From NCBI GenBank assembly GCA_002441045.1, contig DJWQ01000162.1, positions 2,139 to 36,785 on the forward strand: a stretch of DNA of 34,647 bases. Reading direction: 5' to 3'. The stretch comes from Firmicutes bacterium UBA6226. GTDB taxonomy: Bacteria > Bacillota_A > Clostridia > Peptostreptococcales > Acidaminobacteraceae. Both the position numbers and the translations under genes were made by a program. Positions 12,469 to 25,820 of the stretch are shown in pieces (the stretch's first letter is position 1; each line of letters opens with the position of its first letter). The notes under the pieces are model-generated. The model was given only the letters and a program-made list of their open reading frames with translations. It searched no databases and was not told where the DNA came from.

Positions 12469-14316
12469 TTAAACGACTTCTTGTGCTTCTAACTCTTTAT
12501 TCATTTTATTTCTATATCTTACTCGATCCGTTTCATTGAGAATTCTTTTTCTCATTCTTAATGAATCTGGTGTGATCTCAAGCAATTCATCATCTTCTAT
12601 GAAAGTAAGTGCCTCTTCCATATTAAACACTTTTGGTGGTAAAAGTTTGATTGCATCATCAGAACCTGATGCTCTTGTATTGGTTAATTTCTTATTCTTT
12701 GTCGGGTTAACGACCATGTCTTCTTTTCTTGAATTGATACCAATGATCATTCCTTCATAGACTTCAGTACCTGCATCGATCATCATCGTTGCGCGATCAG
12801 ACAAGTTAAATAGGGAATATGCCATCGCTACACCACCTTGTTGAGAGATTAAAACACCATTGCTTCTCTTTGGTATTTCGCCTCTATAAGGTTGGAATTC
12901 GAAGAATGATCTGAGTAAAACGCCTTCTCCTCTAGTAACATTGATAAATTCACTTCTATATCCCAATAGACCACGTGTTGGTACTAAAAACTCTGATCTA
13001 GTAAAACCATCCTCTGAGTGCATACCATCTAATAGGCCTTTTCTTAAGCTAAGCTCTGAAATAACTGCGCCTGAGTACTCATCAGGAACAATCGCAATAA
13101 CACGTTCAATCGGTTCGTATTTTTGACCATCAATCATTTTCATAAGAACCTGTGGCTTAGAAACAGCAACTTCATAGCCTTCACGTCTCATATTCTCTAA
13201 AAGAATCGATAGGTGAAGTTCGCCTCGACCAGATACGCGATAACCATCTTGAACAGAATCTAACGCATCTACTCTTAAGCCCACATTTACTTCCAACTCT
13301 TTGTCCAGTCTGCTTTTTAAGTGTCTGTTTGTTACAAATTTTCCACTTCTACCGCAAAATGGTGAGTCATTGATTAAAAAGTTCATTGAAAGCGTTGGCT
13401 CTTCAATTTCAATCATTGGTAAAGCTTCAACTTTATCTGGGTCACAAATGGTTTCACCAATTGAGATGTCTTGTATACCAGCTATAACGACCATATCTCC
13501 AGCATATGCTTCAGTCACTTCCACCTTTGAAAGACCTTGATAGACATAAAGCTTTGAGACTTTCGCACGCTGTTGTGTGTTATCTCTTTTACTAATCATC
13601 ACTTGATCGCCTTGTTTGATTGTACCTCTAATTAATCTGCCAATTCCAAGTCTTCCGACATATTCGTCATAGTCCAGTGAAGAAATTTGCAGTTGCAAAG
13701 GTTCATCCGAACTGTCGCGATAAGGCTCAACGTGATTTAAAATAGTTTCAAATAAAGGTGACAAGTCAGTACTCTCATCTTCCATACTTAACTTAGCAAT
13801 ACCTTCCTTCGCTATTCCATATACGATAGGAAACTCAAGCTGATGATCGTCTGCATTTAACTCAACAAATAAATCGAAAGTTAAATCAACTACTTCTTCT
13901 GCTCTTTGATCTTTCTTATCTATTTTATTTATAAATAAAATTGGTCTCAAACCTCTTTCAAGAGATTTTTTTAGAACAAATCTGGTTTGTGGCATTGGTC
14001 CTTCACTTGAGTCTACTAATAAGATTACGGTATCGACCGTTTTCATTATTCTTTCTACCTCAGATGAAAAGTCAGCATGGCCTGGTGTATCTACGATATT
14101 GATCTTGTAATCATTGTACATAATAGAACAGTTTTTTGAGTAAATGGTGATGCCTCTTTCTCTTTCCAAATCATTACTGTCCATAACACACTCTGGCACG
14201 AACTCATTTGCTCTAAAAACATTGCTTTGATTTAAAAATGCGTCAACTAAAGTCGACTTTCCTGCATCAACGTGAGCGATAACCGCAATATTGATGATGC
14301 CTTTGTTTTTTAACAT
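12469..14316 (-). CDS. typA: Translational GTPase TypA/BipA
   Basis: BipA is a ribosome-binding GTPase of the EF-G class that helps 50S assembly and growth under stress. The 615-residue protein has the full G domain: AHVDAGKST (G1, about 13-21), RGITI (G3 lead), DTPGHADF (G3), NKID (G4) and a SAL-equivalent region, followed by domain II (RLGIGRLIRG), EF-G-like domains III and V (GRGELHLSILLE; PTRGLLGYRSEF) and the BipA-specific C-terminal domain (SGSDDAIKLLPP). The start ATG has TAGGAGAT before it. It is a single-gene unit with a strong terminator. The upstream AT-rich stretch has only weak promoter matches. Confidence 0.97.
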   Translation of the reverse strand: MLKNKGIINIAVIAHVDAGKSTLVDAFLNQSNVFRANEFVPECVMDSNDLERERGITIYSKNCSIMYNDYKINIVDTPGHADFSSEVERIMKTVDTVILLVDSSEGPMPQTRFVLKKSLERGLRPILFINKIDKKDQRAEEVVDLTFDLFVELNADDHQLEFPIVYGIAKEGIAKLSMEDESTDLSPLFETILNHVEPYRDSSDEPLQLQISSLDYDEYVGRLGIGRLIRGTIKQGDQVMISKRDNTQQRAKVSKLYVYQGLSKVEVTEAYAGDMVVIAGIQDISIGETICDPDKVEALPMIEIEEPTLSMNFLINDSPFCGRSGKFVTNRHLKSRLDKELEVNVGLRVDALDSVQDGYRVSGRGELHLSILLENMRREGYEVAVSKPQVLMKMIDGQKYEPIERVIAIVPDEYSGAVISELSLRKGLLDGMHSEDGFTRSEFLVPTRGLLGYRSEFINVTRGEGVLLRSFFEFQPYRGEIPKRSNGVLISQQGGVAMAYSLFNLSDRATMMIDAGTEVYEGMIIGINSRKEDMVVNPTKNKKLTNTRASGSDDAIKLLPPKVFNMEEALTFIEDDELLEITPDSLRMRKRILNETDRVRYRNKMNKELEAQEVV

Positions 14317-14393
14317 TTTATCTCCTAAACTAATTAAGCGTAATATTCAACCTTATAATAATATCTTATTTTTGCAGTAAAAGATATCATAAT

Positions 14394-14467
14394 TTGAAAA
14401 AAAGACAAAAAATAAAAATCTTTGGACATCGAGTCCTCCGATTTAACCACCCGCTAAGATTGTCGTT
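14394..14467 (-). other. Structured element before typA, possible second terminator
   Basis: Minus-strand AATCTT and AAGATT enclose a GC-richer core with two competing small stems (ATCG/CGAT and GGAC/GTCC), followed by a very T-rich run. It may be a backup terminator for the transglutaminase transcript or a small RNA end. It is the only structured part of the gap upstream of typA besides the terminator at 14470. Confidence 0.35.
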
Positions 14468-14469
14468 AA

Positions 14470-14506
14470 ATAAAAAAACTGCGCTGCAGATAACCACAGA
14501 ACAGTT
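14470..14506 (-). terminator. Terminator after transglutaminase gene
   Basis: Minus-strand AACTG-TT-CTG, loop, CAG-CG-CAGTT with one internal bulge, followed by seven T, within 10 bases of the stop. Confidence 0.7.
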
Positions 14507-14514
14507 AAGAAGGC

Positions 14515-15306
14515 TTAATAAACTTTTGAAACACTATAATCTTTTGCTAATTTGTATATTGAAACAGCTTTGTTTGCTTGTACATACGATGCATCCACTG
14601 TTGTGTCCACTGTTTTCCACGCGCCATTAATATAGATTTCATTCCAAGCATGGTAGACATCACCAGTATTCACAGAGTAACCTTTAACAAGTTTAGTAGG
14701 AATACCAACGCTTCTTGTCATTGCAGCAAATAATGCTGAATAATCGTAACAAATCCCATTTTTTGAAGCAAATGTACTATCGACATTTGGGAAGTAACCA
14801 CTGGTTACAGTTTTTGCTTTATTATAATCGTATTTATAGTTCTTAGTAATATAGTTATAGATTGCTTTTACTTTTGCATCATCAGACGTTAAATTTTTAG
14901 TTAGCTCATATGCCTTTTGAACAGCTAGTGTATCTTCATTCCATTCTATATCTTGAATTGAATTTAGGTATACGACATTCGAGTTTGCTAAATTTAAGGT
15001 AACGGAAGTTTTTGTCAGTTCTTTATAACTATTTCCAGTGGTATTCTGCATCAATCGCACTGTATAAGTGCCATTTCCAAGTTGTAATGGAAATTGGTTC
15101 ACATCTGTGTCTACTATTGGATAAGAGTACCTTTGACCATCTTTTTCAACCAACAATAGAATTTTGCTACTGCTTGAAGTGCTATATTCAACGTTTACGA
15201 TTCCTGTTGCTAAATCTGCTTGAATGGTTTGAGTTGCACCAAAACTGGTCAATGATGCACTGACCAAAACAACCGTCATCACTAATAAACTCAATATTTT
15301 TTTCAT
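14515..15306 (-). CDS. Secreted transglutaminase-like cysteine protease/peptidase
   Basis: 263 residues with a clear signal peptide (MKKILSLLVMTVVLVSASLTS, cleavage near SFGA-TQ). The C-terminal half is a transglutaminase-like domain: catalytic Cys in NGICYDYSALFAAM, His in VYHAWNEI and Asp in VDTTVD. An N-terminal beta domain of about 100 residues precedes it. Such proteins act outside the cell on wall-linked peptides or proteins; the reaction could be hydrolysis rather than cross-linking. The open frame runs to 15381, but the real start is ATG 15306 because the signal peptide begins there, and GGGAGAG lies six bases before it. Two cyclic-di-GMP riboswitches occupy its leader, so it belongs to the lifestyle-switch regulon. 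Confidence 0.88.
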   Translation of the reverse strand: MKKILSLLVMTVVLVSASLTSFGATQTIQADLATGIVNVEYSTSSSSKILLLVEKDGQRYSYPIVDTDVNQFPLQLGNGTYTVRLMQNTTGNSYKELTKTSVTLNLANSNVVYLNSIQDIEWNEDTLAVQKAYELTKNLTSDDAKVKAIYNYITKNYKYDYNKAKTVTSGYFPNVDSTFASKNGICYDYSALFAAMTRSVGIPTKLVKGYSVNTGDVYHAWNEIYINGAWKTVDTTVDASYVQANKAVSIYKLAKDYSVSKVY

Positions 15307-15317
15307 GTTTCTCTCCC

Positions 15318-15400
15318 TTCGGTAGCTAGGCTGCCATTCCTTGTGGAAAGGCCCTATAGCTTTGCGTCCCATCGTTTCCAATGGTTTGCCGTTATCGGTG
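15318..15400 (-). ncRNA. Class I cyclic-di-GMP riboswitch, second copy
   Basis: Minus-strand sequence contains the GEMM-I core: GGCAAACC (15383-15390), GGGACGCAAAG (15360-15370), CCTTTCCACAAGG and GGCAGCC (tetraloop-receptor side). CTCTC just 5' of the aptamer (15400-15404) can pair with GAGAG in the ribosome site GGGAGAG (15311-15317), extending the closing stem. That predicts that ligand binding hides the ribosome site and turns translation off, an inference from pairing only. Confidence 0.9.
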
Positions 15401-15449
15401 AGAGGTTCGTTTCACGTAATGAAATTTTCAAAAAATAGAAAATCTCCTC

Positions 15450-15533
15450 ATTCGGCGACTGGCTGCCACTCCTTGCGGAAAGGCCCTATAGTTTTGCGTC
15501 CCATCGTTTCCGATGGTTTGCCTTTGTCGTGAA
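15450..15533 (-). ncRNA. Class I cyclic-di-GMP riboswitch, first copy
   Basis: Same GEMM-I core in the same orientation: CGAC...GTCG closing stem (15526-15529 with 15456-15459), GGCAAACC (15515-15522), GGGACGCAAA (15493-15502), CCTTTCCGCAAGG and GTGGCAGCC. It is nearly identical to the second copy across the conserved core and separated from it by about 50 bases. Tandem arrangement suggests a sharper or combined response to cyclic di-GMP. Confidence 0.92.
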
Positions 15534-15571
15534 AAGACATCTCTTCACAGAATATTTACTTCTATGCTAAT

Positions 15572-15599
15572 AGTATACCACACTTATAATTTTGTACAA
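15572..15599 (-). promoter_or_regulatory. Promoter of riboswitch-transglutaminase unit
   Basis: Minus-strand TTGTAC, 16-base spacer, TATACT, with a TGG extension. Start of transcription near 15565, giving a leader of about 260 bases that contains both aptamers. Confidence 0.7.
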
Positions 15600-15620
15600 T
15601 TACAAAAACATTACGACTTT

Positions 15621-16334
15621 TTATGGATTTTGTAAAGCATGTATGATTAAACGATGTGTCGGATTCTTTACAGGATCACAGGTAACCAAGGTTAAAATTT
15701 TATCTTCATTATTTTTATATAAAACAGAAATTTCAGTTGGCTCTACGATAAGAGTCTCATATACTGTGTACTTATAGACCTTATTATCTGTAGTGATTTC
15801 AATAACGTCACCTTTTCCTAACTCGTCTAAGCGGTTAAAAAACAAACCATACGATCTACCTCTATGTCCCGCTATTCCTACATTCCCGATTTCACCAAAG
15901 TCTGAAGTGCCCGCAATTACAGCTGCGCCTCTATTTAAATTTTTATCTGTTGCACCCATTAGTATCGGCATTATCAAGTTAATTTTGGATATTTTTATTT
16001 TCCCTATAACACTTTTGTCTACGGTTTTAACTTTCTCCGTAGTAGCTTCTGTTGATGCCTCTGTTGATTCAATTACATCTGTAGACGTTTCAACTGTCGT
16101 CTCTTCTTCACTCGCTTCTATCGCATCACTCGCTTCATAAATCGCTTGTAAAGCAAGAAAATCTGCCTCGGCTTGTTGATCTGCTTCTTCATTTAAAGTC
16201 AATTGACTGTCATATGCTTCAAGTAATTTGTTTTGCCAATAATCAGCATATAATTTGTCAGCAATTGGGAAAGCAGCAATCCCTAAACCTGCTATAATCA
16301 ATCCTGTGGATAGCCATTTTTTCCAACTTATCAT
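15621..16334 (-). CDS. Sortase, class D-like
   Basis: 237 residues. An N-terminal membrane helix (about 9-27) is followed by a long acidic Glu/Ser/Thr-rich linker to about 105, then the sortase beta-barrel. Catalytic residues are visible: His in GIAGHRGRS, Cys in TLVTCDP and Arg in THRLIIH. The motif pattern fits class D more than A or B; this assignment is by eye. Sortases attach LPXTG-type proteins to the wall or build pili. No substrate with an LPXTG tail is in this window. It is downstream of a 56-residue membrane protein (18-base gap), with AGAGGCAG before its ATG, and ends before the riboswitch promoter. Confidence 0.9.
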   Translation of the reverse strand: MISWKKWLSTGLIIAGLGIAAFPIADKLYADYWQNKLLEAYDSQLTLNEEADQQAEADFLALQAIYEASDAIEASEEETTVETSTDVIESTEASTEATTEKVKTVDKSVIGKIKISKINLIMPILMGATDKNLNRGAAVIAGTSDFGEIGNVGIAGHRGRSYGLFFNRLDELGKGDVIEITTDNKVYKYTVYETLIVEPTEISVLYKNNEDKILTLVTCDPVKNPTHRLIIHALQNP

Positions 16335-16583: not shown

Positions 16584-16608
16584 GAGGGTGTACTATTGCA
16601 CACCCTTT
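16582..16608 (-). terminator. Terminator-like hairpin at end of redox operon
   Basis: GGGTGT / ACACCC stem; the stop codon of the ATPase gene lies in its loop. The following minus-strand sequence (TCTTTACATTTTG) is only moderately T-rich, so termination may be partial. Confidence 0.45.
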
Positions 16609-17141
16609 ATTTCTTGAAGACCTTCTGTTATATATTCTCTTAACCATGTAATAACGTCAAGATTATTAATCGGAACCCCATCTAGTAACTTTCTAATTTC
16701 CTTTGTGTTTAATGTAAACGTCTCGTTGTTTACAGTGTGTGTGTAAATCATATCCATAGACTCACATGCATTGATAATGGTCACCAACGTTTCCGGCATA
16801 TCCCCTAATGGCACACGATCGATATGACTGTGTTTGAAGACGGCAGTTATTTCAGTTCCAGCGCCAAGTTGTGATTTGATTTCAAAATAACCACCACATT
16901 GCTCAGCAGATGATTTAAAAAGTGGTATTCCCAATCCAACCTTTCGTGTCGTTCGAGTTGTATAAAAAGGATCGATTACCCTTCTAACGGTCTCCGCATC
17001 CATTCCAATACCGTCGTCCTTAATTTTAATCGTCAAACGGTCTGCCGCCATATCTTCAATTACGACAATTCTTAAACACTCCGCTTTAGCTGAAATTGAA
17101 TTTTGTGCAATATCCAAAATGTGTAAAGAAAGCTCCCTCAT
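16593..17141 (-). CDS. Histidine kinase-type ATPase domain protein
   Basis: 182 residues. It has a GHKL ATP fold without any sensor or dimerisation domain: N-box ILDIAQNSISA (about 8-18), G1 box KDDGIGMD, F-like segment FYTTRTTRKVGLGIPLF, and GAGTEI near residue 100. The last 70 residues are a different domain with no motif that I recognise. Proteins of this type beside clostridial hydrogenase genes have been annotated only as ATP-binding domain proteins. The start overlaps the previous stop by four bases (ATGA). It is the last gene of the six-gene operon. Confidence 0.8.
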   Translation of the reverse strand: MRELSLHILDIAQNSISAKAECLRIVVIEDMAADRLTIKIKDDGIGMDAETVRRVIDPFYTTRTTRKVGLGIPLFKSSAEQCGGYFEIKSQLGAGTEITAVFKHSHIDRVPLGDMPETLVTIINACESMDMIYTHTVNNETFTLNTKEIRKLLDGVPINNLDVITWLREYITEGLQEIKGVQ

Positions 17142-17842
17142 AATACCTTCCCCAATAAATAATCAATAACTGCTGAACAACTTCTTTCATTTAATTCCAT
17201 AGAATGAACGGGTTCACTAATTTGCTCTAAATAATGTGCATCAGAATTATAGATAATCTGATAATCGTTTGTCAAACCATCCGATATTGGACTGTTTACA
17301 TGTACTTCAACGGTTTTAAATCCTAATGACTCAGGTATAAATCCTAAATTGACGAGTATGCTATTTGATGCTTTATTAATATGTGCAGGAACAACGCATC
17401 CAAAATGCTTTTCTACCAAAGCTTTAACTGCTTCAATTGATAAATCCACCGACATCATAAGCGCTCTTAACTCTTCTCCAATTTGTTCATCATTTTCATT
17501 TAATATGAGCTGATGTCCAAATAACTTAGGTTTATTTAGTATTGGTGTCTTATAAGTTATTAGCACTTCATTAAATTCAAGAAGATCCGATAAACTTCTA
17601 AAGTAGCAAAGTACATGAACCTCTTCTTTTGTTTGAATTTCCATACCAGGAACCAACAGAATATTAAATCTCTCTGCAACTTGAGCAATCGCTTCAAGAT
17701 TGTCACAAGCGTTGTGATCTGTCACTGCAATTATGTCTAATCCTTTTATGTGCGCCATTCCCACGATATTATTAGGCGTCATATCCTCACTACCACACGG
17801 CGATAGACATGAATGTATGTGCAAATCATAGTAAAGTTTCAC
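17138..17842 (-). CDS. PHP-domain protein of hydrogenase-linked operon
   Basis: 234 residues with PHP metal motifs: YDLHIHSCLSPCG (about 5-17), AVTDHN (39-44), PGMEIQTKEEVH (64-75) and IIYNSDAH (196-203), so metal and phosphoesterase chemistry is likely. Compared with DNA-polymerase-type PHP domains it is compact and stands alone. The GTG start overlaps the previous stop codon (TAGTG), supported by the continuous reading pattern; no separate ribosome site is needed. It is the second PHP gene of the window, not closely similar by eye to the one at 3138-3860. Its partners suggest that it acts in signalling or nucleotide turnover rather than in histidine synthesis. Confidence 0.82.
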   Translation of the reverse strand: MKLYYDLHIHSCLSPCGSEDMTPNNIVGMAHIKGLDIIAVTDHNACDNLEAIAQVAERFNILLVPGMEIQTKEEVHVLCYFRSLSDLLEFNEVLITYKTPILNKPKLFGHQLILNENDEQIGEELRALMMSVDLSIEAVKALVEKHFGCVVPAHINKASNSILVNLGFIPESLGFKTVEVHVNSPISDGLTNDYQIIYNSDAHYLEQISEPVHSMELNERSCSAVIDYLLGKVL

Positions 17843-18174
17843 TATTTTACTCCAGCTTCATATAAAATCTTAAAAATTTCAAAAGAATCTAGCTCTGTTG
17901 AAAGAATAACAACTTCTTGCTCATTTGCTTTTTCCAAAATTTCTTGTTCAACTTTAATCCCTTCCGGAATAATAATACAAGCAAAGTCTAATAATGAAGC
18001 GACTGCCAAAATATTATTGTGTGTTTGAACTGTAATCCAAGCGGTATCGTGCTTACCCTTTGCCATTACCCAACTTAACAAGTCACATGAATATGCATTT
18101 TCAATTTTTCTATCTAAATTCTCTCCTGATAAGTGTTTAAAACCAAACTTTTCAATCAATTCTTTTACAAACAT
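17842..18174 (-). CDS. DRTGG-domain-like protein (operon copy 2)
   Basis: 110 residues with a DRTGG/HPr-kinase-like regulatory fold: ENAYSCDLLSWVMA (about 26-39), WITVQTHNNILAVASLLDFACIIIPEG (46-72), then VILSTELDSFEIFKILYEAG. In this family the small domain occurs in phosphotransacetylases and beside CBS domains, and probably binds a nucleotide. No catalytic residues are visible. It follows the hydrogenase-like gene by 51 bases and overlaps the PHP gene by one base. The operon carries a related second copy at 19989-20336, so the two may pair. Confidence 0.72.
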   Translation of the reverse strand: MFVKELIEKFGFKHLSGENLDRKIENAYSCDLLSWVMAKGKHDTAWITVQTHNNILAVASLLDFACIIIPEGIKVEQEILEKANEQEVVILSTELDSFEIFKILYEAGVK

Positions 18175-18225
18175 CTCTATACTCCTCAGCCTAAAATTAT
18201 AATTTATGAATCACTTGTAATAACA

Positions 18226-19470
18226 TTAGCCTTTAGACTGAGTTTTTAACAAGACACAATCTTCTAGCTTTGCATTGCCACTGACGATGTCCTCGGCGAG
18301 AACTCTACAGTTTGGTGCGCCACAGGCACCACAATTGATACCGGGCAACATCTGAGTATACTCTTCTATTTTTGCCATTTTTTCTAGTGCCCGTTTAAAA
18401 TCAGTATCTAATTTGAAAATCGGCATTGGTTTAATTGGTGTATCCCATTCCATATTTTCTGGAATTAAATCAATATCAATGGTAATAGGTTCATCCATTC
18501 CATATTTTTTTGTTAATTTTCTAACGCGATTCTTGCCAATAAACGTGTTTTCAACATTTAATGGCCCTCCGACACATCCGTTGACACAAGCATATCCTTC
18601 AAAGAAATCTAAAGAATTGAGCTTACCAATCTCCATTGACTCAAGTACCTTTATAACTTCATCAATACCATCTACGGCGATATAATCATCAATTTCCATG
18701 GCATAGCTTTGTCCACCAACTCTTGCCCAACCAATCCCTTTTCCAGTTGAACGCTGAAGCGGTTTTAAGTCCGTCACCTTATCGATTATTTTCATTACTT
18801 TGTAATAGATTTCTTCTGTGGACACGGCTTCATCAATACTTGATTTATCTATGCCAATTGGGTTTTTTATACTTGTTATTTTTGCTGGACACGGTGAAAT
18901 ATAGATTATACCGATTTCATCTTCTGCATAGCCTTCTTGAATTAATCTTCTTCTCACATGTCTTGCTGCTATTTCCATAGGTGCTTCAAGTTTTATGATA
19001 TGATCAATTAAAGCTGGATATTTTATTTGAATTAGTCGTGTAATTACAGGGCAATACGTCGATATTAAAGGTTTGTTGATATGCTTTTTTTCAAGCATTG
19101 ATTTCTCATAAACTGCTAGAATTTCAGCGGCATGTGCCGTGTCATACACTTCATCAAATCCTAATTTCAACAATGCATTGTATACCTTATTTGTATCATA
19201 CTCTTCCGCAAATTGACCATAAAATGAAATCGACGGAAGTGCAACTGTGTACTTGTAGTTGTTCAGAGTATCTATCGAACTGACAAGTGCGCCTTTTGCA
19301 TGATAAGGGCAAACTCTTAAGCATTCCCCACAATCAATGCAACGATCTTGAATGATTCGTGCTTTACCGTCGATGATTCTAATGGCTTGTGTCGGACATC
19401 GATCAAGACAGTGTGTGCATCCATTACAGTAGTCTTTTTCGAGCACTACTGAATGCCAGTATTCTCTCAT
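18226..19470 (-). CDS. Hydrogenase-like iron-sulfur protein with degenerate H-cluster motifs
   Basis: 414 residues. N-terminal part: two 4Fe-4S motifs, CNGCTHCLDRCP (15-26) and CIDCGECLRVCP (44-55). Middle: [FeFe] hydrogenase large-subunit fold, but active-site motifs differ from catalytic enzymes: STYCPVI in place of TSCCPxW, SPCPAKI in place of MPCxxK, and GYACVNGCVGGP in place of MACPGGCxxGGG. C-terminal: CGACGAPNC, an extra iron-sulfur domain. This matches the small-domain group D or sensory-like hydrogenase relatives, so a redox sensor is more likely than H2 turnover. The frame is open to a TTG at 19482, but ATG 19470 has GGAGGT four bases upstream. It sits between regulators of the RsbW and DRTGG types. 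Confidence 0.85.
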   Translation of the reverse strand: MREYWHSVVLEKDYCNGCTHCLDRCPTQAIRIIDGKARIIQDRCIDCGECLRVCPYHAKGALVSSIDTLNNYKYTVALPSISFYGQFAEEYDTNKVYNALLKLGFDEVYDTAHAAEILAVYEKSMLEKKHINKPLISTYCPVITRLIQIKYPALIDHIIKLEAPMEIAARHVRRRLIQEGYAEDEIGIIYISPCPAKITSIKNPIGIDKSSIDEAVSTEEIYYKVMKIIDKVTDLKPLQRSTGKGIGWARVGGQSYAMEIDDYIAVDGIDEVIKVLESMEIGKLNSLDFFEGYACVNGCVGGPLNVENTFIGKNRVRKLTKKYGMDEPITIDIDLIPENMEWDTPIKPMPIFKLDTDFKRALEKMAKIEEYTQMLPGINCGACGAPNCRVLAEDIVSGNAKLEDCVLLKTQSKG

Positions 19471-19493
19471 TATTACCTCCAAGTGAGGACTGA

Positions 19494-19940
19494 TTAGTAG
19501 GTGACGACCATCTTAATTTGAGTACCAACGCCAAAAGTTGATTCAATGATAAACTCGTCGCTCACTTTTTCCATGTTTGGCAAGCCCATACCTGCACCAA
19601 ACCCCATTTCTCTTGCGACAGCAGTGGCAGTTGAAAACCCCTTTGTCATCGCAAGATCAATATTTTCAATTCCTGGGCCAACATCTTCAACGTATATTTC
19701 GATACAGTCGGGCTTTATGTATACGTCAATCGTACCACCCAACGAGTGAATGACTAAATTAATTTCTGCTTCATAAGTTGCAATTGCAATTCTTCTAAGA
19801 ATATTTGCATCAATAGCCAATTGTCTAAGCATATTCTTAATCTTACTAGAAGCCTCACCAGCTCTTGAAAAGTCATCTTTTAATATCTCGTAGTGAAGTT
19901 TCATAGCAACGTTTGATTCGTTTCTCATATAGGCGTTCAT
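19494..19940 (-). CDS. RsbW/SpoIIAB-type anti-sigma-like ATPase
   Basis: 148 residues of the GHKL fold: N-box ATYEAEINLVIHS (about 54-66), G1 box VEDVGPGIENI, and a clear GFGAGMGLPNMEKVSD (G2, near 112-127). It resembles RsbT/RsbW and SpoIIAB proteins that bind a partner and hydrolyse ATP; no sigma factor or antagonist gene is in the window. In Clostridia such ATPases sit near hydrogenase-like genes. It may phosphorylate or switch a partner according to the redox signal of the neighbour at 18226-19470. A weak AAGGGG lies 11 bases before the ATG; the next in-frame ATG has no ribosome site. Confidence 0.82.
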   Translation of the reverse strand: MNAYMRNESNVAMKLHYEILKDDFSRAGEASSKIKNMLRQLAIDANILRRIAIATYEAEINLVIHSLGGTIDVYIKPDCIEIYVEDVGPGIENIDLAMTKGFSTATAVAREMGFGAGMGLPNMEKVSDEFIIESTFGVGTQIKMVVTY

Positions 19941-19988
19941 AAATCTCAGATCCCCTTGCCTCTGTAGATTAGTATTACGGTTGACTGA

Positions 19989-20336
19989 TTAAATGGATAT
20001 GCCTCTTAATCCATTGTTATATAGTATACCTGAAACGGTAAATAAAGACTCTCTTGTTGACATTAGCAGTATTTTTTTATCTTCTGCTAGGTTGATCATT
20101 TCATTACATGGTTTCTTGCCTCTTACGAAAAGGATTGCCTTTAAATCAAGCATCTCAGCCGTTCTGATTACCTGCTGATTCGTCAGACCTGTAATTAATA
20201 AAGTGTCATCTTCCACATAAGCTAACACGTCACTCATTAAGTCGGAACCAAAAGCCGTATTGATTTCCAGTTCAAGACCAGGTTCATATGCTAAAACATC
20301 TGCTTTAATTATCTCTTTGATGTATTTTAAGTGCAT
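19989..20336 (-). CDS. DRTGG-domain-like protein (operon copy 1)
   Basis: 115 residues with the DRTGG-type fold: INTAFGSDLMSDVLAYVEDDT (about 25-45), LLITGLTNQQVIRTAEMLDLKAILFVRG, then IINLAED-like KKILLMSTRESLF. It is the first gene of the redox operon. Two ATG codons lie in a row; I use the second (20336), which is five bases from AGGAGG, while the first is only two bases away. Homologous to the 110-residue protein at 17842-18174 in general plan. It probably binds a small ligand such as an adenine nucleotide; no catalytic motif is visible. Confidence 0.72.
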   Translation of the reverse strand: MHLKYIKEIIKADVLAYEPGLELEINTAFGSDLMSDVLAYVEDDTLLITGLTNQQVIRTAEMLDLKAILFVRGKKPCNEMINLAEDKKILLMSTRESLFTVSGILYNNGLRGISI

Positions 20337-20356
20337 CATTGCCTCCTATAACCCAA

Positions 20357-20385: not shown

Positions 20386-20414
20386 ATTATAGCATCTTTA
20401 CATTCTGAGTTCAA
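20386..20414 (-). promoter_or_regulatory. SigmaA promoter of redox operon
   Basis: Minus-strand TTGAAC, 17-base spacer, TATAAT with a TGC extension. The -35 lies inside the 3' end of tmk. Confidence 0.78.
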
Positions 20415-21030
20415 TTTCTTTTATTACAGCTTTTGTGACCGCTTCTACAGATTGATTTGCATCAATCGTCACGATACGTTTGGGAAAGCGTTCAACTAAG
20501 CTTAAATAGCCTTCTCTTACGCGTTCATGAAAGTGAAGCCCCTCCAAATCAAGCTTATTGATCTCACGATCTGGATTCTGTGCAATCCGATCTAAACCCA
20601 CTTTAGGGTCAACATCGAGATACAATGTCAAGTCTGGTAAAAAGCCCTCTGTCGCAAACAAGTTCATATTATAGACCTCATCTATACCAATTCCTCTAAC
20701 ATAGCCTTGATAGACCATAGACGAATCAACAAATCGATCGATAATCACCAGCTTACCTTGCTTAACTGCAGGTTTCACTTTTTCAACCAAATGCTGTCTT
20801 CTAGCCGCTGCAAACAAAAGTGCTTCTGTTCGAACATCCATTTCAGGCAAATTTTTATCTAAAGTAATGCTTCGAATTTGTTCAGAAATTCTAACACCAC
20901 CTGGTTCTCTTGTAATAATAAAAGGAAGGCTCAAGTCTTGAAAATAAACCGCAATCTGCTCAATAACAGTTGATTTGCCCGCACCGTCTCCACCTTCTAT
21001 AGATATGACTAAAGGTTTCTTGTTAAACAT
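20398..21030 (-). CDS. tmk: Thymidylate kinase
   Basis: Tmk phosphorylates dTMP to dTDP for DNA synthesis. 210 residues with P-loop IEGGDGAGKST (about 11-21), the DRx substrate motif in IIDRFVDSSMVYQG (near 94-107), ITREPGG and RRQHL for dTMP and the lid. Length is typical. GAGGAG is seven bases before the ATG. Between it and hydA stands a strong terminator. Its 3' end carries the promoter of the following redox operon. No holB or psp gene is beside it, unlike many Firmicutes. Confidence 0.96.
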   Translation of the reverse strand: MFNKKPLVISIEGGDGAGKSTVIEQIAVYFQDLSLPFIITREPGGVRISEQIRSITLDKNLPEMDVRTEALLFAAARRQHLVEKVKPAVKQGKLVIIDRFVDSSMVYQGYVRGIGIDEVYNMNLFATEGFLPDLTLYLDVDPKVGLDRIAQNPDREINKLDLEGLHFHERVREGYLSLVERFPKRIVTIDANQSVEAVTKAVIKEIELRM

Positions 21031-21195: not shown

Positions 21196-21240
21196 CAAAA
21201 TAAAAACCTGCAACTACATGTTGTCATGTAATTGCAGGTG
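21196..21240 (-). terminator. Rho-independent terminator after hydA
   Basis: Minus-strand ACCTGCAATTACATG-ACAA-CATGTAGTTGCAGGT (15-base stem) followed by TTTTATTTTG. It ends the hydrogenase operon 47 bases past hydA. Between it and tmk there is a perfect GGCTTAAGCC palindrome (21108-21117) and weak promoter matches. Confidence 0.92.
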
Positions 21241-21286: not shown

Positions 21287-23038
21287 TTATTTGTTTAATG
21301 GGAATTTTTCTCTAGCAACATAGTGCGTATGAAGTAATTCATGCGCTTTATGGCTATTTGGTTTACCAAGATACTCATCGTATAAGCGTTTGATCTCTGG
21401 ATTTTTATGAGATTTTCTTACAGTTAAAGCAGCATCTTCTGAATAAAGTGCTTTTGCTCTTTCTGCTCTTATATCGATTACATTTCTAACGTTAGCTGGT
21501 TGAATTGGCTGTCCACCACCATTTACACAACCGCCAGGGCAAGCCATAACTTCGATAAAGTGGTAATCTGCTTCGCCATTTTTAATTTTATCAAGTAAGA
21601 TACCAGCGTTTGTTGTATTGTGCGCAACCGCAACCTTAATATCCATACCAGCAACGTTAACCGTAGCTTCTTTGATACCTTCGATACCACGAACTGCAGT
21701 ATAGTCAACGTTTTCAAGATCTTGACCGCTTAACACATCAGCAACCGTTCTGATCGCTGCTTCCATAACGCCACCAGTCGCCCCGAAGATTACGCCAGCA
21801 CCTGAATAGTCGCCCATGAATGCATCGAAAGTACCTTCTTCTAATTTATCAAACTCAAGTCTAGCTTCTTTAATCATCAGTGCAAGTTCACGAGTTGTAA
21901 TTGATACATCTACGTCTCTATATCCATTAACTTCAAGTTCTGGTCTTACGATTTCTGACTTTTTAGAAGTACATGGCATTACAGAAATTACGAGGATATC
22001 TTTTGGATCGATACCGTGTTTTTCAGCATAGTAGCTTTTTGCTAATGCACCAAACATATTTTGTGGTGATTTACATGTTGAAAGGTGTGGTAAAAGATCT
22101 GGATAGTTAAACTCGATATATCTTACCCAACCTGGCGAACATGATGTGATCATCGGTAAAACGCCACCGTTTTGTAGTCTGTGAAGTAACTCTGTACCCT
22201 CTTCCATAATCGTAACATCAGCAGCCCAGTTTGTATCGAAAATCTTGTCAAAGCCAAGTCTTCTTAACGCTGTAGCTAATTTACCAGTTACGTTTGTACC
22301 GATTGGGTATCCAAACTCTTCACCTAGTGCTGCTCTTACAGCTGGAGCTGATTGAACGATAACGTGTTTAGATTTATCTTCAAGTGCTGCCCATACTTTA
22401 TCGATAGCAGATTTCTCTGTTAAAGCACCTACTGGACAAGTTACCATACATTGACCACAGTAAATACATGGTACATCTTTCATGCTCATTTCAAACGCAG
22501 GTCCTACAGTTGTTTTGAAGCCTCTGTTTAAGAAATCTAAGATACCGATGCCTTGAACATTTTTACATGCGCTTACACAACGACCGCAAAGAATACATTT
22601 GCTTGAATCTCTTACGATTGAAGGAGAAAGATCATCAAAAGATGGCTCTCTTTTTTCGCCTTCATAAGGGATTGTTCTGATGCTTAATTCTTCAGAAAGT
22701 GATTGTAATTCGCAGTTTTTGCTTCTTACGCATGTTGTACACTCTCTGTTATGGTTAGCAAGTAATAATTCTACTGTATTTTTTCTAGCTTTTCTAACTC
22801 TTGTATTGTTAGTGTTAACTACCATGCCTTCACGAACTGGAAGCACACATGAAGCTTGAAGTGCTCTAGCACCTTCCACTTCAACAACACAAACACGACA
22901 AGCGCCAACTTCATTGATATCTTTAAGGAAGCAAAGAGTTGGAATATCGATACCAACTGTTCTAGCAGCTTCTAATACTGTTAAGTTACTTGGTACTTCA
23001 TATTGAATACCGTTTATAGATAAACTTACATTACTCAC
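21287..23038 (-). CDS. hydA: [FeFe] hydrogenase, catalytic subunit HydA
   Basis: 583 residues, the catalytic subunit of a multimeric NAD-linked hydrogenase. N-terminal 2Fe-2S (Cys36, 47, 50, 64), His-ligated 4Fe-4S (His96, Cys100, 103, 109), two 4Fe-4S in C148ILCGRC and C191IYCGQCMVTCP, then the H-cluster domain: L1 TSCSPGW, L2 MPCTSKKSE, L3 MACPGGCVNGGGQP. L1 has Ser where the prototype TSCCP has Cys, a variant I recall from multisubunit enzymes. The fold is complete, and DKxx-type ends are normal. It ends the operon hydC, the ferredoxin-like gene, hydB, hydA. It should exchange electrons among NADH, ferredoxin and protons in the cytoplasm, with the H-cluster built by HydEFG encoded elsewhere. 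Confidence 0.95.
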   Translation of the reverse strand: MSNVSLSINGIQYEVPSNLTVLEAARTVGIDIPTLCFLKDINEVGACRVCVVEVEGARALQASCVLPVREGMVVNTNNTRVRKARKNTVELLLANHNRECTTCVRSKNCELQSLSEELSIRTIPYEGEKREPSFDDLSPSIVRDSSKCILCGRCVSACKNVQGIGILDFLNRGFKTTVGPAFEMSMKDVPCIYCGQCMVTCPVGALTEKSAIDKVWAALEDKSKHVIVQSAPAVRAALGEEFGYPIGTNVTGKLATALRRLGFDKIFDTNWAADVTIMEEGTELLHRLQNGGVLPMITSCSPGWVRYIEFNYPDLLPHLSTCKSPQNMFGALAKSYYAEKHGIDPKDILVISVMPCTSKKSEIVRPELEVNGYRDVDVSITTRELALMIKEARLEFDKLEEGTFDAFMGDYSGAGVIFGATGGVMEAAIRTVADVLSGQDLENVDYTAVRGIEGIKEATVNVAGMDIKVAVAHNTTNAGILLDKIKNGEADYHFIEVMACPGGCVNGGGQPIQPANVRNVIDIRAERAKALYSEDAALTVRKSHKNPEIKRLYDEYLGKPNSHKAHELLHTHYVAREKFPLNK

Positions 23039-23076
23039 GATAAGTACACCTCTTTCATATAATCTTTGTTGTCCAA

Positions 23077-24873
23077 CTATTGCTTAACAATAACTTTCTT
23101 AGGACATTTTGGAATACAAGCGCCACATTTGATACATTTTGCTTGATCGATGACATGATTTTGTTTCACTTCGCCACTGATAGCATCAACTGGGCAAACG
23201 CGTTTACAAGCAGTACAGCCAATACAGCCATCTGTGATGACGATTGACAATAAATCTTGACACATACCAGCTGGACATTTTTTGTCAACTACGTGAGCGA
23301 TGTACTCATCTTTGAAGTACTTAAGTGTTGATAATACTGGATTTGGTGCAGTTTGTCCAAGACCGCAAAGTGATGAGTCTTTTATAGAGTAAGCTAATTC
23401 TTCTAATTTAGTTAAATCTTCCATAGTACCGTTACCTGAAGTGATTTTTTCAAGCATTTCAAGCATTCTCTTAGTACCTTCACGACACGGTACACATTTA
23501 CCACATGATTCATCTACTGTAAAGTCAAGGAAGAATCTAGCGAAGTCAACCATACAGTTTGTATCGTCAACAACGATCATACCACCAGAGCCCATCATTG
23601 AGCCAAGTGCAGTTAAAGTATCAAAATCGATTGGTGTATCAAGATGTGCTTCAGTTAAACAACCACCTGATGGACCACCTGTTTGAACAGCCTTGAACTT
23701 TCTACCATTTGGAATACCGCCACCGATATCATAAATAACTTCTTTAAGCGTTGTTCCCATTGGAATTTCAACAAGACCCGTGTTATTGATTTTACCACCT
23801 AAAGCGAAAACCTTAGTACCAGGTGATTTTTCAGTACCGAATGAAGTAAACCAATCAGCACCGTTTAAGATAATTTGAGGTACAACCGCATAAGTCTCAA
23901 CGTTGTTGATAATTGTCGGTTTTCCAAAGATACCCTTTTGAGCTGGGAATGGTGGCTTTGGTCTTGGCATACCACGCTCGCCTTCGATAGATGCGATAAG
24001 AGCAGTCTCTTCACCGCATACGAATGCGCCAGCACCTAATCTGATTTCCATTTCAAAGTTGAAATCAGTACCAAATATATTTTTACCGAGTAAGCCCATA
24101 GCATTCGCTTGAGCAATCGCAATACCTAAACGCTTAACAGCGATTGGATATTCCGCACGGATATAGACATAACCTTTTTCAGCACCAATTGCATAAGCTG
24201 CAATTGCCATTGCTTCAATGATTGCATGTGGGTCACCTTCAAGGACAGAACGATCCATAAATGCACCTGGATCTCCCTCGTCGGCATTACAAGCAACATA
24301 CTTAATATCGCCTTCTGATTTAGCAGCGAACTCCCATTTTAAGCCTGTTGGGAAACCACCGCCCCCACGGCCACGAAGACCTGATTTTTTCATCTCATCG
24401 ATTACTTGCCCCGGTGTCATTTGAGTTAATGCTTTACCAAGAGCTTGGTAACCATCAAATGCGATATACTCTTCGATGATTTCAGGGTTGATTACACCAC
24501 AGTTTTTAAGTGCAACACGTTTTTGTTTTTTGTAGAAAGTTACTTCATTGATACTGGTTTCAATTTCAGTAACATTTGCTAATTTATCAACATAAAGAAG
24601 ATCTTTTACTATTCTTCCTTTTAATAAGTGCTCGTCAACGATTCTTTCTACGTCTGCTTTTTCAACTCTTGAGTAGAATGAACCTTCTGGATATACGATA
24701 CAGATAGGACCTGCTTCGCAAAGACCGAAACAACCAGTTCTTACAACTTTCACTTCTTTTTCTAAGCCTTTTGCGACTAAAGCATCATTAAACATTTCTT
24801 CGATGGTTGCTGATCCTGAGGATACACAACCTGTACCACCACACACAAGGACATGTGCTCTATAGAAATCCAT
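23077..24873 (-). CDS. hydB: NADH-dependent hydrogenase flavoprotein subunit HydB (NuoF-like)
   Basis: 598 residues: N-terminal thioredoxin-like 2Fe-2S domain (CGGTGCVSSGS, then TGCFGLCEAGP), NuoF core with GRGGGGFPTGLKW (FMN/NAD loop), ACNADEGDPGAFMDR, GAGAYICGEE-type segment GAGAFVCGEETAL, the SLBB region, a 4Fe-4S site SCGKCVPCREG, and C-terminal CIGCTACKRVCP and CIKCGACIPKCP clusters. This is the flavin site where NADH electrons are split or joined (family knowledge). The frame is open to 24921, but ATG 24873 has AGGAGGT six bases before it and starts with MDFYRAHVLVCGG, the typical beginning. Confidence 0.95.
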   Translation of the reverse strand: MDFYRAHVLVCGGTGCVSSGSATIEEMFNDALVAKGLEKEVKVVRTGCFGLCEAGPICIVYPEGSFYSRVEKADVERIVDEHLLKGRIVKDLLYVDKLANVTEIETSINEVTFYKKQKRVALKNCGVINPEIIEEYIAFDGYQALGKALTQMTPGQVIDEMKKSGLRGRGGGGFPTGLKWEFAAKSEGDIKYVACNADEGDPGAFMDRSVLEGDPHAIIEAMAIAAYAIGAEKGYVYIRAEYPIAVKRLGIAIAQANAMGLLGKNIFGTDFNFEMEIRLGAGAFVCGEETALIASIEGERGMPRPKPPFPAQKGIFGKPTIINNVETYAVVPQIILNGADWFTSFGTEKSPGTKVFALGGKINNTGLVEIPMGTTLKEVIYDIGGGIPNGRKFKAVQTGGPSGGCLTEAHLDTPIDFDTLTALGSMMGSGGMIVVDDTNCMVDFARFFLDFTVDESCGKCVPCREGTKRMLEMLEKITSGNGTMEDLTKLEELAYSIKDSSLCGLGQTAPNPVLSTLKYFKDEYIAHVVDKKCPAGMCQDLLSIVITDGCIGCTACKRVCPVDAISGEVKQNHVIDQAKCIKCGACIPKCPKKVIVKQ

Positions 24874-24904
24874 TGATATACCTCCTAAATTTGGTTTGTT
24901 ACAA

Positions 24905-25270
24905 TTACTCTGCTGCACCAATCGTGAATTCAGTTACGATATTGCCATTAACGATGTGTTCTGCGATAATTCTTCTCGCTTTTTCTTCTGTTAATTCAAC
25001 ATAAGTAACTTTTTCGCCGCCTTCTTTGTAGACTTCAACGAGTGGCTCAAGTCTGCAAACGCCAATGCAACCTGTTTGAGTAATCTCTACATCTTTCAAA
25101 CCTCTTTTTTGAACTTCATCCATCAAAGCGGCTAAGATAGGGCGAGCACCTGCTGCGATACCACAAGTTGCCATACCAACGACAATTCTAGTACCTTTGC
25201 GATCTTTTCTTAAATCAACTTTTTTAAGTGCTTCGTCTCTAAGTTGTGTTAATTCAGCTAATGTTTTCAT
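24905..25270 (-). CDS. Small 2Fe-2S ferredoxin-like subunit of hydrogenase operon
   Basis: 121 residues of the thioredoxin-like [2Fe-2S] ferredoxin type: VGMATCGIAAGARPIL (about 48-63) then TGCIGVCRLEPLVEV, giving the four cysteine-type cluster. The first 30 residues form a charged helix. Corresponds to the accessory fourth subunit found in four-subunit clostridial hydrogenase operons (called HydD in some species). The frame runs to 25321, but ATG 25270 has AAGGAGG six bases before it, and the upstream part would overlap hydC. It probably adds an electron-transfer step or anchors the complex. Confidence 0.85.
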   Translation of the reverse strand: MKTLAELTQLRDEALKKVDLRKDRKGTRIVVGMATCGIAAGARPILAALMDEVQKRGLKDVEITQTGCIGVCRLEPLVEVYKEGGEKVTYVELTEEKARRIIAEHIVNGNIVTEFTIGAAE

Positions 25271-25280
25271 TTGTGCCTCC

Positions 25281-25763
25281 TTAATTCGCTTGGTATTTTT
25301 GGATGATGCCAGGGATATCATTTAAAGTCAAACGACCATAGACATCTTCATTTACAGTTAATACAGGCGCAAGACCACATGCACCGATGCATCTTGTCGC
25401 TTCTAATGAGAATTTACCATCTGGAGACGTCTTACCAACTCCAACATTTGTCATCTCAGAAATTTTATCAATTAGTTGTTGCGCTCCTCTTACATAGCAA
25501 GCTGTTCCGAGGCATACTGAGATTAAATAATCGCCTTTTGGTTCTAGTGTAAACTGTGAGTAGAAAGTAACTACGCCATAAATTTCAGCTAATGGTGTAT
25601 TTAACTTTTCCGAGATCACTCTTTGCACTTCCATTGGGATTGCACCGAAAATATGTTGTGCTTCATGAAGAATCGGCATCAAAGGACCTTGCATATCTTT
25701 ATGCTCTTCGATCACTTTGTGAAGCTTTTCGAAATTTTCATCAGTTAAAAAGTTCTTTGCCAT
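25281..25763 (-). CDS. hydC: NADH-dependent hydrogenase subunit HydC (NuoE-like)
   Basis: 160 residues, first gene of the hydrogenase operon. NuoE-type helical N-terminus (MPILHEAQHIFGAIP, about 31-45; IYGVVTFYSQF, 63-73) followed by the thioredoxin-like 2Fe-2S: SVCLGTACYVRG (about 86-97) and EATRCIGACGLAP. It passes electrons between the flavoprotein and the catalytic subunit. The frame is open to 25817, but ATG 25763 is preferred: GGAGG lies nine bases upstream and MAKNFLTDE fits the family. Its leader of about 115 bases contains a Rex-like site and a hairpin. Confidence 0.94.
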   Translation of the reverse strand: MAKNFLTDENFEKLHKVIEEHKDMQGPLMPILHEAQHIFGAIPMEVQRVISEKLNTPLAEIYGVVTFYSQFTLEPKGDYLISVCLGTACYVRGAQQLIDKISEMTNVGVGKTSPDGKFSLEATRCIGACGLAPVLTVNEDVYGRLTLNDIPGIIQKYQAN

Positions 25764-25820
25764 TAAAAAGTTCCTCCTTATCGATTGCTTGTTTAACACC
25801 GTAACCCGCGATGTCAAACC

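Follow-up and report, generated by a model that had tools for sequence, protein, structure and literature searches.

The window analysed here is a stretch of 34,647 nucleotides (nt) from contig DJWQ01000162.1 of Firmicutes bacterium UBA6226, and all positions below are window coordinates. We are concerned with six genes that lie head to tail on the minus strand from 20339 to 16593 and that encode, in this order, a DRTGG protein (D1), an RsbW/SpoIIAB-like ATPase (R), an [FeFe]-hydrogenase homologue resembling HydS (S), a second DRTGG protein (D2), a PHP-family phosphoesterase (P) and a GHKL ATPase (G). Families were called by Pfam and NCBIfam profile scans of ten proteins, those of this module and of the neighbouring hyd operon, and the Pfam matches of all six module proteins exceed the gathering scores. 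Open reading frames and Pfam thus confirm the gene order, strand and tight packing described in a sequence-only reading of the same DNA: the gaps are 48, 11 and 51 nt, and D2/P and P/G overlap by 1 and 4 nt, respectively. That reading had set the limits at 16593..20336, which is right for the genes and leaves out the adjoining A6 hydrogenase operon. D1 starts at the ATG at 20339 or at the next one, at 20336. S reaches 418 amino acids (aa) from a TTG, and the ATG at 19470 is the more likely start. The host is Fusibacter-like: among the matches listed, one protein is 98% identical, and that of Fusibacter bizertensis 88%.

The hyd operon (21287-25817, minus strand) ends about 1 kb upstream of the module on the same strand. 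Its HydA exceeds the family cut-off for group A6 and is adjoined by hydB and hydC, which places the enzyme in that group, with electron bifurcation predicted; it is likely that this neighbouring hydA is the controlled partner of the module. Because terminator-like stems follow both hydA and G, and a promoter-like site precedes D1, the arrangement suggests that the six genes may form a transcription unit of their own; promoter-like sites in the region number 23 against 20.7 expected, that is, not above chance.

Table 1. Genes and putative signals of the module and its surroundings.
Feature	Coordinates	Strand	Evidence
D1, stand-alone DRTGG protein, 116 aa	19989..20339	-	Pfam DRTGG 29.4 bits
R, RsbW/SpoIIAB-like GHKL ATPase, 148 aa	19494..19940	-	Pfam HATPase_c_2; TIGR01925 55.1 bits, below 135-bit cut-off
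S, HydS-like [FeFe]-hydrogenase homologue, 418 aa	18226..19482	-	Pfam Fe_hyd_lg_C; ferredoxin-type domain and, at the C-terminus, FeS domain
D2, second stand-alone DRTGG protein, 110 aa	17842..18174	-	Pfam DRTGG 33.1 bits
P, PHP-family phosphoesterase, 234 aa, GTG start	17138..17842	-	Pfam PHP 31.4 bits
G, stand-alone GHKL (histidine-kinase-like) ATPase with C-terminal extension, 182 aa	16593..17141	-	Pfam HATPase_c 55.8 bits
Promoter-like site with extended -10, 5' of D1	20386..20414	-	consensus match only
Terminator-like stem 3' of G	16585..16606	-	consensus match only
Terminator-like 15-pair stem 3' of hydA	21206..21239	-	consensus match only
tmk-like (thymidylate kinase) gene between hydA and D1	20398..21030	-	sequence; name presumed
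hydA, NADH-dependent [FeFe] hydrogenase group A6 catalytic subunit	21287..23038	-	NF040763 923.5 bits (cut-off 765); PDB 7q4v HydA1
hydB, NuoF-like flavin subunit	23077..24921	-	Pfam/NCBIfam profiles
Small [2Fe-2S] thioredoxin-like ferredoxin gene	24905..25321	-	PF01257 23.1 bits, just below 24.8 cut-off
hydC, NuoE-like [2Fe-2S] subunit	25281..25817	-	Pfam/NCBIfam profiles

The protein S consists of two N-terminal [4Fe-4S] sites, an H-domain and a C-terminal FeS domain of the form Cx2Cx4Cx16C; it has no Pfam match to a PAS domain. All 16 of its Fe-S cysteines are present: C19, C22, C25, C29, C48, C51, C54 and C58 at the N-terminus, the cubane ligands C144, C198, C299 and C303 in the H-domain, and C384, C387, C392 and C409 in the C-terminal cluster. 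These cysteines show the ligand sets of four predicted [4Fe-4S] sites. Among long HydS sequences, 218/218 retain the 12 cysteines of the N-terminus and the cubane, and 217/218 retain the four at the C-terminus (some genomes counted twice).

The same layout, likewise without PAS, is described for TamHydS of Thermoanaerobacter mathranii, a putatively sensory hydrogenase of group D (M2e), which also resembles S in having a hydroxyl residue at the M353 position, and HydABC and a histidine-kinase-like ATPase nearby (PMC8163306, PMC10407848, PMC11803613, PMC13104023). A relative of S from T. wiegelii (L003, 50% identical to S) matches the published TamHydS numbering at A137, S191, E252, E289, L291, C379 and C404, and residue positions can therefore be transferred from TamHydS to S: A137, S191, E252, E289 and L291 correspond to Y143, S196, Q258, E295 and Y297, which together with K201 are the key residues of S. 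Layout and numbering thus agree with the earlier suggestion of a sensory or group D relative. The M353 position, occupied by S196, is T or S in 80/81 aligned HydS, as expected for group D. Two other residue-level hallmarks are absent, since the small residue at TamHydS 137 (mostly Ala; A or S in 75/81 aligned) is Y143 in S, and the proton-relay Glu at 252 is Q258. Because these two hallmarks fail, we file S by its sequence as a variant of the group D layout, and not as an ordinary member. It differs from TamHydS in Tyr143 for Ala137, Gln258 for Glu252 and Tyr297 for Leu291. The altered H-cluster motifs noted in the sequence-only reading are real, but all four cubane cysteines are intact. K201, which we take to be the counterpart of CpI K358 and important for the [2Fe] site, is kept as well.

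The substitution at 258 bears on catalysis. The residue proposed to relay protons in group D is E252, and the TamHydS variants E252V and E252D show no detectable H2 oxidation (PMC10407848); E252Q is absent from the variants described in the accessible text of that paper. With Gln in place of the proton-relay Glu and Tyr at two positions of the diiron pocket, HydS of the window's clade is unlikely to turn over H2, and we infer that H2 activity has been lost there. In the predicted structure of S (predicted local distance difference test score, pLDDT, of 75) the Fe-S domains are poor; PDB matches to [FeFe] hydrogenases bear out the H-domain fold, and the model speaks to this fold rather than to a blocked or open [2Fe] pocket.

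Among the best 120 of 5814 homologues of S, 118 combine Y/F143 with Q258 and Y297, and 17 have T, M, Q or R in place of K201. In a tree of 228 HydS sequences, built with the four key columns left out, the window type (Y/F/L143, Q258 and Y297) is found in 38 and requires two parsimony changes; Q258 is found in 66 and requires five.

The neighbourhood of HydS was read in three samples. The first scan of genome contigs covers the best 80 of 566 loci. The phylum sample covers 398 genomes, 159 of them with HydS; we read 80 of these 159 loci, namely 40 of the 46 that lack the maturase HydF and 40 HydF-positive ones, of which half were picked mostly for long contigs, so that the draw is non-random. 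Neighbours were counted in the 66 loci where HydS is flanked by 2.5 kb or more on each side. The order sample is drawn from the order of Fusibacter paucivorans: 148 genomes, 69 with HydS, and 60 loci read. L121 and L076 are one genome.

The six genes cluster far beyond chance. The complete set D-R-S-D-P, where D stands for either DRTGG gene, is present in 63/80 loci of the first scan, often followed by hydC-G-[2Fe-2S]-hydB-hydA, and in 52/66 phylum-sample loci. In the latter sample R lies directly upstream of HydS in 65/66 loci, a DRTGG gene directly downstream in 63/66 and D2-P in 60/66; G belongs to the cluster in 57/66 and HydA or HydB in 51/66. The pair hydC-G lies downstream in 42/66, and G often forms part of the hyd operon, where it is flanked by hydC and the [2Fe-2S] gene. 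Conservation of the neighbourhood, which the sequence-only reading had staked its proposal on, is thus kept. Within the order sample the association is specific to the window type: D-R-S-D-P stands at 23/23 window-type HydS loci versus 0/37 of the others, where HydS is alone or with one DRTGG gene.

Three genomes (G118, G076 and G004) carry a window-type and a classical, Glu258-type HydS together; next to the classical copy, which in G004 is at the end of its contig, we saw none of the module genes. In two genomes a solitary HydS of a different Q258 type (L150:8786-10024 and L157:7921-9207) lies near a gene with the motif GGDGSFLR, presumably NAD-kinase-like.

The two GHKL ATPases and the PHP phosphoesterase, also named in the sequence-only reading, keep their catalytic residues. 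R has conserved E57, N61, D86, G88, G90, G113, G115, G117 and G119 (n=169), with both N-box residues, E57 and N61, at 1.00. It shares the GHKL fold and the Glu-x3-Asn N-box with the anti-sigma kinases SpoIIAB/RsbW, whose catalytic Glu we take E57 to represent, and its nearest solved sequence relative is the anti-sigma F factor SpoIIAB (PDB 1tid, E=1.7e-4). Unlike those kinases, R has no STAS anti-anti-sigma or sigma partner among the ten module and hyd proteins scanned. In G, residues N14, D42, G44, G46, G69 and G71 are conserved at 1.00 (n=119). P carries the complete set of nine PHP ligands, presumably to metal (H8, H10, D42, H43, E68, H76, H154, D201 and H203, each at least 0.98 conserved, n=150), and its nearest solved sequence relative is, weakly, endonuclease Q. 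Both DRTGG proteins have an Asp and a Ser conserved at 1.00: D33 and S36 in D1 (n=155), D31 and S34 in D2 (n=158). The AF2 model of D1 (pLDDT 94.5) finds its best PDB fold match in the DRTGG protein AF1212 (2ioj), with further matches to a CBS/DRTGG pyrophosphatase and to HPr kinase/phosphatase; the idea that the DRTGG proteins hold a nucleotide signal is not supported.

The enzymes beside the module are not always hydrogenases. A motif of selenocysteine (Sec) formate dehydrogenase lies near HydS, on either strand and within 9.5 kb, in 12/80 phylum-sample loci; none is present in the window itself. Ten of the 12 genomes concerned lack HydF, and nine lack all three H-cluster maturases, HydE, HydF and HydG. 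In six loci (L200, L203, L210, L211, L214 and L245; motif HCARL-Sec-H) a fusion of a HydA/NuoG-like N-terminus with a selenocysteine formate dehydrogenase takes the place of hydA, after hydC-G-[2Fe-2S]-hydB; the two fusion proteins tested, from L211 and L245, match TIGR01591 with 909-911 bits and carry Pfam molybdopterin domains. A neighbour with a catalytic H-domain is found in 7 HydF-less loci versus 27 with HydF, and the split between formate dehydrogenase and H-domain neighbours is significant if kinship is ignored (Fisher p=2e-4). Neither neighbour is present in 34/80 loci, partly due to contig ends.

Formate dehydrogenases also occur in the window's clade. L111 reads HydB-HydA-formate dehydrogenase-tmk-D-R-S-D-P-G; in L002 a formate dehydrogenase precedes HydC-f-HydB-HydA and the module; and L123, the locus of genome G130, which lacks the maturases and has HydS as its sole PF02906 match, reads HydB-formate dehydrogenase, other genes, and then tmk-D-R-S-D-P. 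The module therefore seems to follow the bifurcating HydB/HydC core and not H2. Because formate dehydrogenase-linked and hydrogenase-linked loci share this core, the state of ferredoxin and NADH is a better candidate signal than H2. By analogy, the bifurcating formate dehydrogenase HylABC-FdhF2 of Clostridium acidurici is a precedent for such loci: a HydABC-like core is used with formate there (PMC5861303, PMC3519856), and the cofactors given in the accessible text of PMC5861303 do not include an H-cluster. It differs from the six loci above, in which the formate dehydrogenase is fused in hydA's place and accompanied by the HydS module.

As a separate observation, the PHP protein measures 423-431 aa instead of about 240, with an extra part, in L191, L199, L204, L209 and L217, where a Sec formate dehydrogenase lies nearby on the opposite strand; long PHP frames are also present in L123 and L247.

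Maturases were searched with E limits of 1e-90 and 1e-60 for HydE and HydG (phylum sample), and further hydrogenases with PF02906 at E <= 1e-8. In the order sample HydF is over the cut-off in 55/69 HydS genomes, and the 14 without it have no HydE either, nor HydG over the cut-off; four of these 14 have a HydG-profile match of 219-227 bits, versus a cut-off of 312, and controls have HydE and HydG in 6/6. HydS is the only PF02906 match in three of the 14 (G065, G087 and G130, all on draft contigs); G130 combines a window-type HydS and the module with a formate dehydrogenase close by. Among the phylum-sample HydS genomes tested, 112/158 contain HydF (55/80 and 57/78). HydE and HydG are likewise missing from 43 of the 46 HydF-less genomes, so that 43/158 HydS genomes lack all three; the exceptions are G437 and G470, with HydE and HydG, and G541, with HydE. 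Among HydF-positive controls (15 from the phylum sample, 10 from the window's clade) HydG is found in 25/25 and HydE in 24/25. An earlier test on the first scan found HydF over the cut-off in 41/47 genomes, with 33 of the 80 loci outside the test.

Incomplete assembly alone is an unlikely cause of all these absences, because HydE and HydG are lost jointly in 43/46 cases compared with the controls, and because three maturase-less HydS loci lie on contigs of megabase size, near that of a genome (G061, 3.26 Mb; G092, 4.59 Mb; G422, 3.70 Mb); it may explain part of them. We also considered the rule that loss of key HydS residues tracks loss of the maturases. It held in the order sample, where Q258 is present in each of the 14 HydS from maturase-less genomes and none of them is among the 17 with intact K201/E258 (Fisher p=0.006, with one K-lost/E-kept locus left out and kinship ignored). 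As a general rule it was rejected after the phylum sample, where K and E are intact in 34/40 HydF-less versus 37/40 HydF-positive loci; residue loss therefore does not generally track maturase loss.

Taking these results together, we lean towards the view that the module is a redox sensor, responsive to ferredoxin or NADH, that controls a flavin-based electron-bifurcating hydrogenase or formate dehydrogenase through its ATPase and phosphatase partners. HydS would be reduced by ferredoxin or by the bifurcating complex, and the conformation of its C-terminal [4Fe-4S] domain would change with its redox state. This state may then be relayed to the adjoining RsbW-like ATPase, possibly a Ser/Thr kinase that the PHP protein would oppose as a phosphatase; the DRTGG pair, each member with its invariant Asp and Ser, would be relay or target. 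The GHKL ATPase G would act on the HydB/HydC core, and the output would determine how abundant or how active the adjacent enzyme is, be it HydABC or, as in other species, HydBC-formate dehydrogenase. The passage of a signal from HydS to the ATPases and the PHP protein, which the sequence-only reading had also put forward, we likewise infer. Of its proposal that the protein senses redox state or H2, the H2 part is weakened by the Gln at the relay Glu, by the 43/158 maturase-less genomes and by the formate dehydrogenase partners.

A bolder form of this view, which we hold only tentatively, is that the module is a general redox checkpoint for HydB/HydC enzymes, whether these handle H2 or formate, and not an H2 sensor; HydS would then lack the [2Fe] site in about a quarter of the sampled carrier species of the phylum, and its state would be registered by an RsbW-like kinase together with a PHP phosphatase and two DRTGG proteins phosphorylated on the invariant Ser.

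Several observations weigh against the redox-sensor view. Signalling, phosphorylation and protein contacts within the module are predicted from gene content and conserved residues. The maturase counts include draft genomes, which may miss genes, and seven HydF-less loci of the phylum sample have an H-domain neighbour. Furthermore, in all nine of the 14 maturase-less order-sample genomes whose large HydA genes were read (G061, G066, G075, G083, G086, G092, G094, G113 and G189; loci L171-L178 and L183-L186), at least one large HydA gene keeps the H-cluster motifs of group A, so that absence of maturase matches may not mean absence of hydrogenase; these hosts may use unknown maturation or Hyl-type complexes, or have maturases missed by the profiles. 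The persistence of intact K and E in most HydF-less loci is also unexplained by a redox sensor. Finally, the eight sampled relatives nearest to the window all have HydF and HydG, and seven have HydE, and TamHydS, the best studied relative, accepts a synthetic [2Fe] site and shows slow H2 turnover (PMC8163306, PMC11803613), which means that an H-cluster can function in other members of group D.

The last two points lend themselves to a different explanation, proposed for HydS of groups C and D, in which HydS is a true H2 sensor: H2 would reduce a complete H-cluster, and the ATPase and PHP proteins would relay H2 pressure to the expression of hydABC. TamHydS assembles an H-cluster in vitro, and its authors liken it to the regulatory [NiFe] hydrogenases (PMC8163306); regulation is affected when hfsB, a group C gene, is deleted (PMC5707799); and in the window hydABC adjoins the module, while S retains its four cubane cysteines and K201. 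We nevertheless regard this as unlikely, given the Gln and the two Tyr in the window's clade, the lack of detectable H2 oxidation in the E252 variants of TamHydS described above, and the persistence of the module without maturase matches and beside formate dehydrogenase.

Less likely again is an ATP-driven system for assembly, repair or reductive activation of the Fe-S/flavin core of HydB/HydC, in which HydS would donate electrons and the GHKL ATPases would act as conformational motors, without a signal cascade. The module does accompany the HydBC core with either enzyme, G is often part of the hyd operon, as the 42/66 loci with hydC-G downstream attest, and the ten window proteins scanned include no STAS or sigma partner. 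A PHP protein together with an RsbW/SpoIIAB-type ATPase would, however, fit a phosphorylation cycle better, and bifurcating HydABC enzymes have been produced in other hosts without such a module. That HydS is a small electron-transfer subunit, or one coupling formate dehydrogenase and hydrogenase, and the other five genes unrelated hitch-hikers, is very improbable, for although HydS does occur without the gene set (alone in 24 and with one preceding DRTGG gene in 8 of 54 order-sample loci), R and a DRTGG gene flank it directly almost throughout the phylum sample and the catalytic residues of the partners are conserved.

The description of the switch as undescribed was too strong. Published work already places HydS upstream of bifurcating HydABC, describes a histidine-kinase-like ATPase that flanks it and proposes a sensory role (PMC8163306, PMC3561251); in particular, the monomeric sensory M2e hydrogenase beside bifurcating HydABC (PMC3561251, Table 6) has the same type of neighbourhood, proximity to a kinase and a regulatory proposal, and an operon of Halanaerobium (PMC4237134) includes PHP and anti-sigma genes, as here. 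The accessible text of these two accounts makes no mention of a DRTGG pair, maturase-less hosts or formate dehydrogenase partners. The group C HydS/HfsB is likewise a presumed sensor derived from a hydrogenase, with a regulatory deletion phenotype, but has a PAS domain and a different gene set (PMC5707799). Moreover, in the TamHydS-type arrangement G stands between hydC and the [2Fe-2S] gene, whereas in the window it adjoins PHP. An 'AraC-family regulator' is reported to flank TamHydS in T. mathranii (PMC8163306); in T. wiegelii the downstream neighbour of HydS is a DRTGG protein without an AraC domain. Our searches found no paper linking DRTGG with [FeFe] hydrogenase and none relevant on maturase-less hydrogenases, most subscription papers lying outside their reach. 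New here are the pocket changes of the window's clade despite 16 intact cysteines, the HydS genomes without maturases, and the Sec formate dehydrogenase partners.

How group D hydrogenases transfer their signal was left open by Land et al. (PMC8163306). The set of RsbW, DRTGG, PHP and GHKL proteins, present in most phylum-sample HydS loci read, may be that route, and its presence beside formate dehydrogenase and without maturases would change the view of what these proteins sense. The question is relevant to how fermentations and gut communities regulate their fluxes of H2, formate and ethanol.

Several minor features of the window remain to be described. The gene between hydA and D1, presumably tmk-like, has a tmk-like counterpart at the same place in several close relatives. 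No tRNA genes were found in the window. Downstream of the module, at 12469-16334, lie genes that by eye we presume to be BipA/TypA-like (a GTPase), transglutaminase-like and sortase-like. The neighbouring hydA reads TSCSPGW where CpI has TSCCPGW, that is, it has Ser at CpI C300, presumably a cubane ligand; the same motif is found in HydA1 of A. woodii (7q4v) and in many HydA of the loci analysed.

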